A DNA stretch of 42,605 nucleotides. It comes from Microscillaceae bacterium (GTDB lineage: Bacteria > Bacteroidota > Bacteroidia > Cytophagales > Microscillaceae). The translations under genes were made by a program, and so were the position numbers. This document shows positions 24,225 to 28,506 of the stretch, piece after piece. Location: positions 1 through 42,605 of the forward strand of contig JANWZA010000012.1 in the NCBI GenBank assembly GCA_025054775.1, in the 5' to 3' direction. The first letter of the stretch is position 1, and each line of letters opens with the position of its first letter. The notes beneath the pieces were generated by a model. That model searched no databases. It was not told where the DNA came from and was given only the letters and a program-made list of their open reading frames with translations.

Positions 24225-24878
24225 ATGTTCTACTCCTTACTTTGCCTTTTTGTTTATGACTGCACGGCTTGCCCTACACGCTGTGATAACCGAACCACTC
24301 CTCAATTTGATTTTAAGCGTGATGTAGCATTTTCAGAACTTATTGAACAAGAGGTAATTAGTTGGATACACACTCATTACCCCACCTTAAAAGCAACTAA
24401 AAGTACCCAAGTGGGTTATCCTGACATTGCTGTTACTCACCAAAATTATCCACATGAGGTACTACTTTGGATAGAAATCAAAGGACAGGAACGTACTTTT
24501 ATGGCAATTACTCATCTCTTGAAAGAGAGCCAACTACAACCTTCTGAAACAGTTGCTTTAAATTTGAGTGACTTGGAACGGTACTTTTCTATCAAAGATA
24601 TAGAAAAAACTCCTATTCTCTTAGTGTGGTGTTTGCTCAATCGCCCTTGTATTGTACCGCAAAAGGAGAAGCTATTTTTTTACCAAGAAATTGATATTTT
24701 ACGCCAAATTTGTGCCCAAGATACGCACAATACACGCCGCTTCCGCAGAGAAAGTGGTATAGGGGACGTGGTAAAAGGAAAGCATAAAGGTGTAACGATC
24801 AATTATCATTTTAGCCTCAACGAACTCCGCCTAGGATTACCTTCTTTGAAAAAACTGGATATAGATGATAAAACATAA
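24225..24878 (+). CDS. Unrecognised protein with a PD-(D/E)XK nuclease-like core
   Basis: A 217-residue protein I cannot place in a named family. Residues 38-48 form an acidic helix (ELIEQEVISWI), followed by GYPDIAV with Asp67, a spacer, and LLWIEIKGQ with Glu84 and Lys86. The order Glu helix, PD, then E-x-K on a hydrophobic strand is the core signature of PD-(D/E)XK nucleases. Near the N-terminus there is CTACPTRC (Cys13, Cys16, Cys20), which could bind metal if that stretch is translated. The C-terminal part is basic. It starts 5 bases after rqcH and ends just before a strong terminator, so it belongs to that operon. The nuclease activity is an inference from motifs only. Confidence 0.65.
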   Translation: MFYSLLCLFVYDCTACPTRCDNRTTPQFDFKRDVAFSELIEQEVISWIHTHYPTLKATKSTQVGYPDIAVTHQNYPHEVLLWIEIKGQERTFMAITHLLKESQLQPSETVALNLSDLERYFSIKDIEKTPILLVWCLLNRPCIVPQKEKLFFYQEIDILRQICAQDTHNTRRFRRESGIGDVVKGKHKGVTINYHFSLNELRLGLPSLKKLDIDDKT

Positions 24879-24920: not shown

Positions 24921-25038
24921 AGGAACTTCTAAAATTTATAACTTTCAGCGAACCGAAAATCACGAAAATTAACCTTTTCTAATAAACCCTTTTTATTTTA
25001 TGCTTAACAACCTTTTTCCAACCTTTTACTTTTAGAAG

Positions 25039-25111
25039 TGGTGACGAGTGGAATCGAACCACCGACACAAGGATTTTCAGTCCTTTGCTCTACCAACTGA
25101 GCTACGTCACC
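25039..25111 (-). tRNA. tRNA-Phe (GAA anticodon)
   Basis: On the minus strand the 73-base sequence starts GGTGACGTAGCTCAGTTGG, has the anticodon arm GGACTGAAAATCC with GAA, and the T arm GGTTCGATTCC. The acceptor stem GGTGACG pairs fully with CGTCACC, and the discriminator base is A. CCA is not encoded. Its downstream end faces the two-way terminator. Confidence 0.96.
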
Positions 25112-25237: not shown

Positions 25238-26254
25238 TTATTCAGGTAGATATTTTTTGCCTAACCCTTGGTTGATTCTCTCTAAATTTTTAATAGCTGA
25301 AGAGCTGATATGTTCAAATTCACTATCGCAAGGAATGAATACAATTTTCAAATCAGGTTTCATTTCCTCCATAAAGCGGAGTTGGTTCACCTCATAGTCT
25401 AGGTCATAGCCATTGCGAAGGCCACGTATGAGTGTAATATCGGCAAAGGTTTCTTTACTTTTCAAGTAATCAGTTAATAGCCCTGTAAACTCTTCAGTTT
25501 GTCGAAAGGCCAACACTTTAAGTTGGTGTATTGATTGTATTGATTCTTGTTTTAATTTGTCAGGGTTTACGCCACGCGCTACAATTACTTTATCAAAAAT
25601 TTTTTCTGCTTTTTGCAAAATATTGTAATGCCCATTGTGAAACGGATTAAACGAACCTGCATAAACACCTATACGTGGTCTCTGTTCGGTTAGGTAATCT
25701 ATCAAAGCCCGTAAATTATAGGCATTTTGCGGATATTGTGTTATCAATTGTTCAAGGAATAATTTCCGCTCCGTAAGGTATAGACCATAATCCAAGTATT
25801 GATATTCTTTCATGATAGCTTTTTCCCACTGAAGTAGGGCTTGAAAATCACCTTTGGCTACAATTTTCATATCCAATTCAATAAACAATTCACTTAAATA
25901 GCTATTAGGTTGGTGCGTTTGCGTATCCAAAATGATTTGGCAAATGGTATCTAAATCAGGATGTGGGCTAGCGCGTTGTCTCAAAAATTCAACCGATTGC
26001 GGTTCGTTATCTTGGCGTTTAGGATTATAGACAATATCGTGAAAAAAGGCAGCCATTACCAAGATAGCATACTCTTGTTGTGTAATTGCTTGTTTTGCTT
26101 TCAACAAATCAATATTGGTTAAGAGGTTTTGTAGATGCGTAAGTGTGTGGTAATAGCGATGCGGTTCGGACCAGGCTTGCAGTAATTCCTCTAATTGATT
26201 GATGCCAAATTGTTGCAGAATAGGAGTATAAGTTTGGAAAAAAAATGTATTCAT
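25238..26254 (-). CDS. coaD: HD-domain phosphohydrolase fused to pantetheine-phosphate adenylyltransferase
   Basis: A 338-residue two-domain protein. Residues 1-190 match predicted HD-superfamily metal phosphohydrolases of the COG4339 type: EPHRYYHTLTHL (His36, His40), AAFFHDIVYNP (His72-Asp73), DNEPQSVEFL, and ELDMK (Asp128). From 194 the CoaD fold starts with IGVYAGSFNPFHNGHYNI (HxGH at 206-209) and continues with LIRGLRNGYDLDYEVNQL and HISSSAIKNL. CoaD makes dephospho-CoA from phosphopantetheine and ATP. Stand-alone CoaD is about 160 residues; here it is a slightly short C-terminal part. The ATG at 26254 is used, as the only in-frame upstream candidate is a TTG. The fusion is read directly from one open frame; the job of the HD part is not known. 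Confidence 0.88.
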   Translation of the reverse strand: MNTFFFQTYTPILQQFGINQLEELLQAWSEPHRYYHTLTHLQNLLTNIDLLKAKQAITQQEYAILVMAAFFHDIVYNPKRQDNEPQSVEFLRQRASPHPDLDTICQIILDTQTHQPNSYLSELFIELDMKIVAKGDFQALLQWEKAIMKEYQYLDYGLYLTERKLFLEQLITQYPQNAYNLRALIDYLTEQRPRIGVYAGSFNPFHNGHYNILQKAEKIFDKVIVARGVNPDKLKQESIQSIHQLKVLAFRQTEEFTGLLTDYLKSKETFADITLIRGLRNGYDLDYEVNQLRFMEEMKPDLKIVFIPCDSEFEHISSSAIKNLERINQGLGKKYLPE

Positions 26255-26399: not shown

Positions 26400-27680
26400 A
26401 TGCTTGTAACCATTGCTCTGCCTGCTTCTAAAAGTGAAAGCAATCGGGCTTTAATGTTGGAAGCCTTAGCTCACTTCCAAGCAGGGCAAACACAAAACAC
26501 AAGCCGAGTGCAAAACCTGTCCTCTGCTCGTGATACACAAATTATGTACTCACTTTTACATACCCAAAGCAAAGAGAGTAATGTCCATGATGCAGGGACG
26601 GTAATGCGTTTTTTGGTAGCATATTTTGCAGTAACCAACCGAACTCAATACTTGTACGGCACGGAGCGTATGCATCAACGACCTATCGGGGTGTTGGTAG
26701 ATGCTCTCAACTCGCTTGGATTTGAAGTACATTACACAAATAAAATAGGTTATCCACCTGTACGAGTTCAGGCAATCAGCCCTAAGCGATATGCCCAAAT
26801 AAAGCATGAGGTAGCAGTAAGAGGTGATGTGAGCAGTCAATACATTTCGGCTTTGCTTATGATAGCTCCCCTTTTGCCTAAGGGGTTAGTTATTAATTTA
26901 TTAGGCGAAGTAATTTCACAGCCGTATATTGCCATGACCATCCAACAAATGCAATACTTCGGCGTACAAACTCTACAAAGAGGTAACTTATTGCAAGTAG
27001 CGCCACAGCGTTACCAGGTGGTAACATTTCATGTAGAGGCTGATTGGTCAGCGGCGAGTTATTGGTATAGTTTTTTAGCTATATTAGCCTGGAAAAAGCA
27101 ATTTTTGGGTCTAAAAATTAAACTTGTTGGGCTAAAAAGCAACTCTTTGCAAGGTGATAGCGTTATTAAAGAGGTGATGCAAAAATGGGGGATTTTTACA
27201 ACTTTTGATAACCAAGGGGCTCTTTTGAGTTTTCATCCAAGTCAATGCACACCCCCAAAACTTGTACTGCATTGTACGCATTGTCCTGATTTAGTACAAA
27301 CTTTTGCAGTTTGCGCGGCTCTGTTACAAACAGATGCTGAATTTAGCGGAATAGAAAGCTTGCGCATCAAAGAAACTGATAGAATCATCGCTTTGCAAAA
27401 CGAATTAGCTAAAATAGGTGTATCCTTGAAGGAAAGGAACAGTAAGTGGTACTTGGATACGCAGAACTTACAATTACCCAAAACTATATTTATTCAAACA
27501 TATCAAGATCATCGCATGGCGATGGCATTCGCAGTATTAGGGGTTTTTTGTGATTTAGAGGTTGAACAACCTCAAGTAGTTTCTAAATCATACCCCCATT
27601 TTTGGGCAGATGTACAACTTTTATTTTCTACGTTGCAACTTCCCTTACCCTCTTTTTTAAGGCACTATGGACATGAATGA
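26400..27680 (+). CDS. aroA: 3-phosphoshikimate 1-carboxyvinyltransferase (EPSP synthase)
   Basis: A 426-residue enzyme with the EPSP synthase motifs LPASKSESNRALMLEAL (residues 7-23), VHDAGTVMRFLVAYFA, LYGTERMHQRPI, VRGDVSSQYISALLMIAP, RIKETDRIIALQNEL and YQDHRMAMAFAVLG near the C-terminus. It joins shikimate-3-phosphate and PEP in the shikimate pathway. The N-terminus is short, with only six residues before the LPASKS motif, which is common in Bacteroidota. The last 14 bases overlap the start of the arginyl-transferase-like gene, which implies translational coupling. Within the PEP-site segment VHDAGTVMRF the usual glycine of the LGNAGT type is still present. Confidence 0.94.
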   Translation: MLVTIALPASKSESNRALMLEALAHFQAGQTQNTSRVQNLSSARDTQIMYSLLHTQSKESNVHDAGTVMRFLVAYFAVTNRTQYLYGTERMHQRPIGVLVDALNSLGFEVHYTNKIGYPPVRVQAISPKRYAQIKHEVAVRGDVSSQYISALLMIAPLLPKGLVINLLGEVISQPYIAMTIQQMQYFGVQTLQRGNLLQVAPQRYQVVTFHVEADWSAASYWYSFLAILAWKKQFLGLKIKLVGLKSNSLQGDSVIKEVMQKWGIFTTFDNQGALLSFHPSQCTPPKLVLHCTHCPDLVQTFAVCAALLQTDAEFSGIESLRIKETDRIIALQNELAKIGVSLKERNSKWYLDTQNLQLPKTIFIQTYQDHRMAMAFAVLGVFCDLEVEQPQVVSKSYPHFWADVQLLFSTLQLPLPSFLRHYGHE

Positions 27681-28506
27681 GTTAGAATTTCAAGTAAATG
27701 ATTTCTTTGAGCGTAAACGCGTTTCATTAAAGCGTTGGGAAAAGTTATTAGCAGAAGGCTGGGACAGAATAGGCAAAAGTTTCCTTAGACGCCGGTTTTA
27801 TTACAGCGACTATGGCACCACCAAATTAGAATGTATGCCCTTACGCTATAATCTTACCATTCCTTTTGAGTTTACTAAAAAACAAAAAAAGATTTTAGCT
27901 AAAAATCAAGATTTGAAAACAATTATTCGCCCTCTACAATTAGATGATGAACAGTTAGCACTCTTTGATGCATGGGAAGAGTATCGATTTCAAAGTTATA
28001 GTAGCATACATTCGTGGATAGTCTCTGAAACTATTCCTTTCCCCTCATACCAAGTGTGCGTATATGATAAAGATCGTCTCATAGCTGTAAGCTATTTTGA
28101 CATTGCAGGCAAAACTCAATACAGCACTATAGCCGCTTATCTGCCTGAAGAGTCGCACCGAAATTTGGGCTATTTTACTCTATTCAAAGAAATTGAATTT
28201 GCTTTGCAAAATAAACGAAAATACCATCACCCAGGATACGCTTACTATAACAATCCTGTGTTTGATTACAAAAAGACTATTCCCAATGCCGAAGGCTATT
28301 GTTGGATAGAAAAACGATGGATACCTTTGCCTATTCTACAAAAGAATTACGAAGCACGTCTTGCTCAAGCCAACAAATCTGATGCAGAGACGAACAGGGA
28401 AAACTCCCTCCCTCCCAAGTCCGAAAATGAAAGATTGCTTAAAAGTGAGCAAGAGGGGGTAGAGACTTTGGTAAGTATATTGAACATGTTGAGCAATATA
28501 CATTAA
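27667..28506 (+). CDS. Arginyl/leucyl-tRNA-protein transferase-like protein (ATE1/Bpt C-domain)
   Basis: A 279-residue protein resembling the C-terminal GNAT-like half of ATE1/Bpt aminoacyl-tRNA-protein transferases. It shows LECMPLRYNLTIPFEFTKKQ with KKILAKNQDL, FDAWEEYRFQSYSSIHS, YQVCVYDKDRLIAVSYFDI, TIAAYLPEESHRNLGYFTLF, and HHPGYAYYNNPVFDYKKTI with WIEKRWIPL. Known family members put Arg or Leu on protein N-termini to make N-degrons. The usual N-terminal CxY and CxxC cysteines are absent, so the acceptor or activity may differ. ATG codons at 27667 and 27673 are both possible starts. It overlaps aroA by 14 bases. The C-terminal 60 residues are polar and poorly conserved-looking. Confidence 0.75.
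   Translation: MDMNELEFQVNDFFERKRVSLKRWEKLLAEGWDRIGKSFLRRRFYYSDYGTTKLECMPLRYNLTIPFEFTKKQKKILAKNQDLKTIIRPLQLDDEQLALFDAWEEYRFQSYSSIHSWIVSETIPFPSYQVCVYDKDRLIAVSYFDIAGKTQYSTIAAYLPEESHRNLGYFTLFKEIEFALQNKRKYHHPGYAYYNNPVFDYKKTIPNAEGYCWIEKRWIPLPILQKNYEARLAQANKSDAETNRENSLPPKSENERLLKSEQEGVETLVSILNMLSNIH

Follow-up and report, generated by a model that had tools for sequence, protein, structure and literature searches.

Within the window analysed here, a stretch of 42,605 nucleotides from a Microscillaceae bacterium (contig JANWZA010000012.1), a single gene codes for a 338-aa two-domain protein in which an HD-type domain is joined to CoaD. With a probability of roughly 0.38, we read this protein as a bifunctional enzyme combining the sole CoaD of the cell with an HD phosphohydrolase that would edit or clean up the CoaD step.

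Organization of the fusion gene

The HD-CoaD gene (25238..26254) is located on the minus strand, as are all of its features given below, and forms a single unbroken frame from the ATG at 26254 to the stop codon at 25238–25240; on the plus strand, the displayed frame is full of stops over the same interval. The HD half (residues 1–191; 25682..26254), delimited by its motif, by alignments and by an AlphaFold model, contains a linker helix at its end (residues 175–190; 25685..25732), and solo phage HD genes end past the equivalent helix. The CoaD half (residues 192–338; 25241..25681) was assigned from matches to TIGR01510 and to solved CoaD proteins and from the alignment. A fusion of HD and CoaD in one open frame had been proposed in a sequence-only reading of this DNA and proved to be real, the same continuous two-domain frame being present in 35 genomes. 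A search of both halves against protein families, which that reading had suggested, placed the CoaD match in the C-terminal and the HD motif in the N-terminal part, and the genomes with the fusion were listed (n = 35). The earlier picture is refined in three respects: the gene lies on the minus strand, the fusion is shared across whole lineages instead of being an isolated case, and its CoaD half represents a divergent subfamily. An assembly error or missed stop at the domain junction, near residue 190, which the earlier reading had kept in view, has a negligible probability because the fusion is replicated in 35 genomes; the identical junction is open in all of them, among them the isolate Raineya orbicola.

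A conserved operon, sought by reading 17 fused or truncated loci, was not apparent, the neighbours varying between lineages. The tRNA-Phe gene beside the window gene (25038–25111) was found in only one of the 15 loci scanned, the window's own, and the adjoining 217-aa frame (24225–24878) has no Pfam match at E ≤ 0.01. Positions 27667–28506 of the window code for a 279-aa protein with an ATE_C domain (arginyl-tRNA-protein transferase C-terminal domain; E = 1.4e-12), adjoining an EPSP synthase gene. In three genomes of family f5 (L012, L013, L038), the 1.5 kb around the fusion contain frames that read like 6-pyruvoyl-tetrahydropterin synthase and GTP cyclohydrolase I.

Distribution across genomes

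The fusion is present in all 31 genomes seen of three families, namely the window's own family f1 (15/15), f5 (8/8) and f22 (8/8), and in 4 of 14 genomes of family f42, which belongs to another class. Among 241 genomes of the order, no others reached E ≤ 1e-30. In a phylum sample, 6 of 395 genomes matched at E ≤ 1e-25, corresponding to the window itself and five members of f42. Besides the four fused genomes, f42 comprises six with a truncated form, two with an ordinary CoaD, and two without a match, which are 82 and 86% complete. Named records with the fusion are the Raineya orbicola isolate (NZ_NKXO01000007.1) and Microscillaceae bacterium Prado074; the R. orbicola protein (L034) is identical to that of an f22 genome (L017) and the Prado074 protein to that of an f1 genome, and the fusion is therefore chiefly a trait of some Cytophagales. 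The FMO protein family, sought as a sign of a Chlorobi origin of f42, was matched in none of eight genomes, and the control likewise gave no match.

In the following, the clade denotes 41 genomes (35 fused, six truncated), while gene-presence searches took in 45 genomes. Loci L031–L035, being exact duplicates of L004, L037, L044, L017 and L045, and L036, which is another nucleotidyltransferase, were left out of the counts. The set of stand-alone HD proteins (n = 15) consists of 13 of L062–L078 (L063, L072, L073 and L076 excluded) plus L081 and L082. The trees were calculated without L029, which has internal stops, and without the longer or less similar HD proteins L079, L080 and L083–L088.

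The CoaD domain

Residues 196–331 match TIGR01510 (CoaD) with an E value of 7e-27 and 94.3 bits, below the cut-off of 103.3, and the next-best equivalog for the fusion protein reaches 30.8 bits. The CoaD half also matches Pfam CTP_transf_like (E = 7.6e-11), and its best solved relatives are CoaD chains (9xwq, E = 2.5e-16). Each of the 41 clade genomes contains one strong TIGR01510 match of 91–111 bits, above the cut-off in five, whereas all other matches in these genomes are weak (≤27.5 bits); a second CoaD elsewhere was rejected, as no other strong match occurs. In the window's genome, the weak match falls on NadD, a protein that reaches 190.7 bits with the NadD model. For comparison, the ordinary CoaD of f42 reaches about 198–200 bits with TIGR01510. 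Identification of the C-terminal half as NadD was also rejected, because a separate NadD above cut-off is present in 39 of 45 genomes; among the clade exceptions, G013 and G627 lack a match, and G130 and G623 show a weak match to the fusion itself. Of the 45 genomes, 41 gave a match for CoaE and 44 one for CoaBC, and the window's genome has both (125 and 432 bits, respectively). The clade genomes without a CoaE match (G001, G117, G130) are 72 to 86% complete. Since CoaBC, CoaE and a separate NadD are present and no other CoaD is, there is a strong case, drawn from sequence and gene content, that the C-terminal half is almost certainly the cell's only CoaD, which would make dephospho-CoA from ATP and 4'-phosphopantetheine.

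In the alignment, the CoaD signature of the window protein is represented by H206–H209, K233, R277, R280 and S317–S319. Residues 206–209 (HNGH; 25628..25639) form an HxGH motif that replaces the TxGH of ordinary CoaD, with H206 in 41/41 clade proteins versus T in 11/11 stand-alone CoaD proteins, and H209 in all 52. Residues 316–319 (ISSS; 25298..25309) correspond to the CoaD phosphate-binding loop; S317 and S318 are kept in 41/41, and position 319 is S in 31 and T in 10. Positions at which mutation abolishes or impairs H. pylori CoaD (PMC12784347) are largely retained: the catalytic residues H18, K42, R91, S128 and S129 occur in 41/41 clade proteins; T10 appears as S in 40/41, R88 is R in 31 and K in 10, and R133 is R in 32 and K in 9. 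Clade-specific changes, in E. coli numbering, are T15H (41/41), D12N (37), N106M (41) and E134N (40). N106 and E134 presumably touch the pantetheine arm. The P8 position is P in 21 and A in 20 proteins. P8A is reported to be inactive in H. pylori CoaD (PMC12784347). In a tree with 11 stand-alone Bacteroidota CoaD proteins, long branches, 3.2 and 5.1 changes per column, set the clade and the stand-alone group apart (support 100/99); in a quicker second tree with more rows, the same two branches measured 1.6 and 3.7. The retained catalytic residues, the long branches and the clade-specific changes together indicate that the C-terminal domain is a divergent CoaD subfamily, whatever its age. Two AlphaFold runs modelled the CoaD half with low confidence (about 40 and 44), and the mean frequency of the top residue, taken over the whole half, is 0.75 for CoaD versus 0.59 for HD.

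The HD domain

HD phosphohydrolases, according to the accessible text of a review, are characterized by an H...HD...D motif and an arginine that precedes its first histidine by about three residues (PMC8177086). The HD half of the fusion contains the H...HD...D metal motif, and R33-x-x-H36, with both residues in 54/54 rows, fits that arginine feature if H36, not H40, is the first ligand. The residues named in the sequence-only reading (H36, H40, H72-D73 and D128) are all present at those positions within residues 1–191, and its hint that the fusion might inform on an uncharacterised HD family has gained support. Nine residues, R33, H36, H40 (R33 to H40, 26135..26158), H72, N83, S87, T111, D128 (the last metal-ligand position, 25871..25873) and E150, show no variation across the fused (n = 35), phage (n = 4) and stand-alone (n = 15) proteins. 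In the H72-D73 dyad (26036..26041), D73 is kept in 34/35 fused, 4/4 phage and 15/15 stand-alone proteins, and the same counts hold for E84 in the N83-E84..S87 motif (25994..26008). Locus L045 (= L035, Raineya sp. SKYG86) carries D73N in the HD dyad together with E84K, and its HD half is perhaps on the way out.

Between D73 and D128, no histidine other than H114 (25913..25915; 33/35 fused, 4/4 phage, 13/15 stand-alone) reaches 93% conservation in the fused rows. The two extra histidines before the last aspartate that define the dinuclear site of YqeK are thus not both present, the second one not being conserved. No YqeK model, if the library includes one, occurred among the 25 listed of 32 NCBIfam matches or among the eight of a second search.

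The match to Pfam HD (PF01966) is below threshold, with 17.1 bits for the full protein and 18.4 bits for the HD half alone, versus a gathering value of 22. We take the HD half to be COG4339-like, a family name that comes from the earlier reading. A literature search on this COG name retrieved no paper, and we know of no tested substrate for the family. Fused (n = 7) and stand-alone (n = 14) HD proteins can be aligned over the whole domain, with 16 invariant columns in 21 rows, and a tail segment of the stand-alone form is absent from the fused HD half. When an HD profile was compared with solved sequences, the nearest were YedJ (E = 0.0085) and BH2835 (E = 0.051), indicating a weak relation; hhalign of the profile with YedJ gave a probability of 38.7% (E = 3e-4). 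The HD half was modelled as all-helical, with pLDDT values of 75–97 per block of ten up to residue 190, apart from one block of 64. The best Foldseek match of the HD half is 2pq7, an HD hydrolase (E = 0.039), with none at 0.001. Compared by VIA-align with the fold of cyclic nucleotide phosphodiesterases, the HD half reached Z values up to 12.8, in a range that the program describes as common among helical folds. The conservation of the motif suggests that the HD half is under catalytic constraint and is probably a catalytically competent phosphohydrolase.

Matches to the HD half at E ≤ 1e-6 occur in 43 of 198 genomes of the phylum, three of them via the fusion and some via longer HD proteins. 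In the flanks of the 15 stand-alone HD loci, read by eye over up to 1.5 kb, no CoA gene was recognized. A frame near the stand-alone locus L081 reads like NadC. The HD proteins of L079, L080, L085 and L088 have about 400 aa and hydrophobic, membrane-like C-termini; we take them to resemble membrane effectors of nucleotide-signal defence systems.

A truncated form in one genus

In six of the seven genomes of genus g218 of f42, all that precedes the clade CoaD is roughly the final third of the HD domain. The truncation removes H36, H40, H72 and D73, and the aspartate aligned with D128 remains in some of the proteins. No other match to the window protein was found in the truncated genomes at E ≤ 1e-5, a threshold that a distant HD gene could escape. 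Because of this deletion, HD activity appears to be dispensable in some cells. In L050, L051, L052 and L057, a thiolase-like frame, recognized by reading, lies close upstream.

Phage and viral copies

Separate copies of the two halves occur in very large phage genomes. LR745206.1 (634,780 bp) and LR756502.1 (642,428 bp) encode a 186-residue HD protein (40–41% identity) that ends past the linker helix, where CoaD would start; a separate fusion-type CoaD is located 94 and 79 kb away, respectively, with identities of 46 and 49% and TIGR01510 scores of 92.4 and 97.8 bits. In LR756501.1 and LR756503.1 (735,411 bp each), which are probably one genome, the HD half is followed by a decayed CoaD without HxGH (hhalign probability 87%); elsewhere in this phage, genes for an ordinary CoaD (139 bits) and, immediately after it, CoaE (119 bits) are found, both above the NCBIfam cut-offs (L100:4953-6016). 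LR756504.1 (636,363 bp) contains an HD half, and no CoaD match was found in it at E ≤ 0.01, the five uncultured-phage records that matched all being others. The phage HD halves (L093:6004-6564, L095:5989-6549, L094:5959-6930 and L096:5773-6618) have an intact metal motif. Upstream of the phage HD gene, a frame for a Sir2-type NAD-dependent deacylase was noticed at L093:3982-4755 (E = 2e-64 to the deacylase model, below its cut-off) and, by similarity on reading, at L095:4612-5361. The agreeing lengths suggest that these records are the four largest complete phages reported in 2020, of 634, 636, 642 and 735 kb, which the accessible text of that report assigns to the Mahaphage clade with predicted Bacteroidetes hosts (PMC7162821).

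Among IMG/VR contigs, a solo HD half occurs in 10, with the motif in 10/10, and a fusion-type CoaD whose frame lacks an HD motif in 12, one of these frames being cut off at the contig edge; the HxGH pattern was matched in 6 of these 12. One contig of 476 kb carries both halves. In the HD tree, the four phage proteins group with the 35 fused ones (100/100) versus the 15 stand-alone proteins. In the CoaD tree, the two phage proteins group with the fusion clade (SH-aLRT 100), inside which, according to a warning of the program, long branches meet. Given the fused relic in the 735-kb phage, the splitting of an originally fused protein is the likely source of the phage halves; the branching order within the clade lacks resolution. 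In PHROGs, a phosphohydrolase family matches the HD half (E = 1.6e-16), and a separate family annotated without function matches the CoaD half (E = 9.5e-14). The window protein matches 48 phage and 76 plasmid records, none of them over 80% of the protein. Viral scans with the window protein and with the protein of the 735-kb phage gave no match, Foldseek against viral models gave two (E = 9.9e-6 and 3.2e-4; viral proteins of 233 and 290 aa), and PADLOC gave none at E ≤ 0.1.

Possible role of the HD domain

The HD half is proposed as an editor of the CoaD step because of the precedent, by analogy, of NadD-YqeK. Clearance of pyrophosphate or of another by-product, which the earlier reading had allowed for, is conjectural: in the accessible text of the review, the substrates given for HD phosphatases comprise nucleotides, dinucleotides and (p)ppGpp but no free pyrophosphate (PMC8177086), and NadD-YqeK suggests that an attached HD domain hydrolyses what its partner makes. 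The CoaD half would form dephospho-CoA from ATP and 4'-phosphopantetheine and, with its altered nucleotide and pantetheine pocket, would yield faulty or surplus products; that it is error-prone is a guess from the substitutions. The HD half would then hydrolyse faulty or surplus products or donors of the attached CoaD, for example dephospho-CoA analogues that arise when CoaD takes up an incorrect NTP or dNTP, or a damaged phosphopantetheine. The fusion, the co-retention of both halves in some phages and the NadD-YqeK precedent are consistent with such a role. It is favoured by the persistence of the fusion, its sole-CoaD status, the near-invariant HD residues, and the presence of both halves in two phages and one viral contig, the phage co-occurrence being weaker evidence because very large phage genomes hold many genes. 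Against it stand the g218 deletion, the HD half of LR756504.1 without a CoaD match, the D73N copy, and the lack of a CoA gene beside the 15 stand-alone HD loci; moreover, in the 735-kb phage the HD half is attached to a CoaD remnant while an ordinary CoaD and CoaE are encoded separately, and about half of the clade has A where P8A is inactive in H. pylori CoaD. A wider version of the proposal, in which the fusion would be an independently evolved second cofactor-editing device that removes wrong dephospho-CoA analogues made by an error-prone CoaD, and in which huge Bacteroidota phages would have taken and split both halves to manage CoA or nucleotide quality during infection, is speculative and unlikely.

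Unlikely as well, although the best placed of the alternatives, is nucleotide or dinucleotide housekeeping (NTP, dNTP, Ap4A-like signals) without a link to CoA, the fusion being a historical accident that was kept as CoaD is essential. This would suit the frequency of HD relatives outside the fusion, the lack of CoA genes near 15 of them, and the phage LR756504.1, which keeps an HD half and no CoaD match; moreover, the HD diphosphatase YpgQ splits dNTPs (PMC8177086). The persistence of the fusion over three families and another class, however, argues against an accident, as do the two phages and the viral contig that keep both halves as separate genes. Rather doubtful is a flux brake, in which the HD half would dephosphorylate 4'-phosphopantetheine, the substrate of CoaD, or its oxidised form, in the manner of the DUF89 domain of human PANK4. 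PANK4 is proposed, in the accessible text of the study concerned, to limit CoA synthesis via its fused phosphatase acting on 4'-phosphopantetheine (PMC9352595), and some HD enzymes, YfbR and YGK1, are listed as monophosphatases (PMC8177086); the HD profile, however, did not align with E. coli YfbR (hhalign probability 0.3%, single-sequence template), its alignment with YedJ being better without being strong, and a substrate destroyer on an enzyme that needs this substrate would be wasteful unless gated.

That the HD half now serves mainly as a scaffold or allosteric lid for the CoaD half is improbable. One genus keeps only the C-terminal HD part, including the last helices before CoaD, as if these were structurally needed, but the motif positions are kept in 33 to 35 of the 35 fused proteins, and viral HD halves without a working CoaD attached retain the motif as well (10/10 IMG/VR contigs and phages of four lengths). 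More improbable still is a release of 4'-phosphopantetheine from holo-ACP, as by AcpH, which presumably belongs to the HD superfamily. Such an activity would feed CoaD through a direct substrate channel, and the HD model aligns with phosphodiesterases (VIA-align Z 12.8, rmsd 4.5, 185 aligned), although such Z values can be common for helical folds; the HD profile, however, did not match E. coli AcpH (hhalign probability 0.2%, single-sequence template). Together, the fusion, the loss of the hydrolase in one genus and its separate carriage by phages make the job of the HD half testable: the fused protein, the g218 deletion of the catalytic part and the HD genes of huge phages represent natural constructs for finding its substrate.

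Comparison with known systems

Fusions of HD domains to adenylyltransferases are already known; the pairing with CoaD, its distribution and the phage-borne halves are new as far as searched, a literature search having retrieved no description of them within its scope, to which supplements, preprints and most subscription journals did not belong. Compared with ordinary CoaD proteins (TIGR01510; PDB 1qjc, 3nd5, 1od6), which are the closest solved relatives and share the catalytic residues, the fused protein differs in its long branch, in HxGH for TxGH, in D12N, N106M and E134N, and in the HD half. YedJ/YpgQ-type phosphohydrolases, whose member YedJ comes closest to the HD profile among solved sequences, also belong to the HD superfamily, but they are not fused, and only the N-terminal part aligns (profile positions 22–114); YedJ and YpgQ are close kin. 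By its NCBIfam name, the bifunctional CoaD/NTP phosphatase PRK01170 (NF002250), with an archaeal host range, likewise joins CoaD to a phosphohydrolase; however, the phosphatase is another one, and the window protein scores 15.6 bits versus a cut-off of 489, in the CoaD part only. PANK4-DUF89 resembles the fusion in that a phosphatase is joined to a protein of the CoA pathway, but it is eukaryotic and involves another phosphatase family and another pathway step (PMC9352595).

The closest parallel in architecture is NadD-YqeK, of which PRK07152 is presumably the NCBIfam model. Like the fusion described here, it is a single polypeptide that unites an HD phosphohydrolase with a nucleotide adenylyltransferase (PMC9426524). 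It concerns, however, NAD instead of CoA and an HD domain of the YqeK/COG1713 family instead of another one, and its HD half, judging from the number of an active-site residue (230) given in the accessible text, follows NadD, whereas here the HD half comes first; the HD-CoaD fusion appears to be of separate origin. In the mycoplasma enzyme, as far as the accessible text goes, NadD used wrong nucleotides, and the HD domain was no less active on wrong-base NaAD analogues, which it hydrolysed, than on NaAD itself (PMC9426524). NadD-YqeK is itself no clean proofreader, because cleavage by its HD domain extended to the correct product and to further compounds, 8-oxo-GTP among them (PMC9426524). If the editing reading of the HD-CoaD fusion is true, CoA synthesis would include a clean-up step comparable to that proposed for mycoplasma NAD synthesis.
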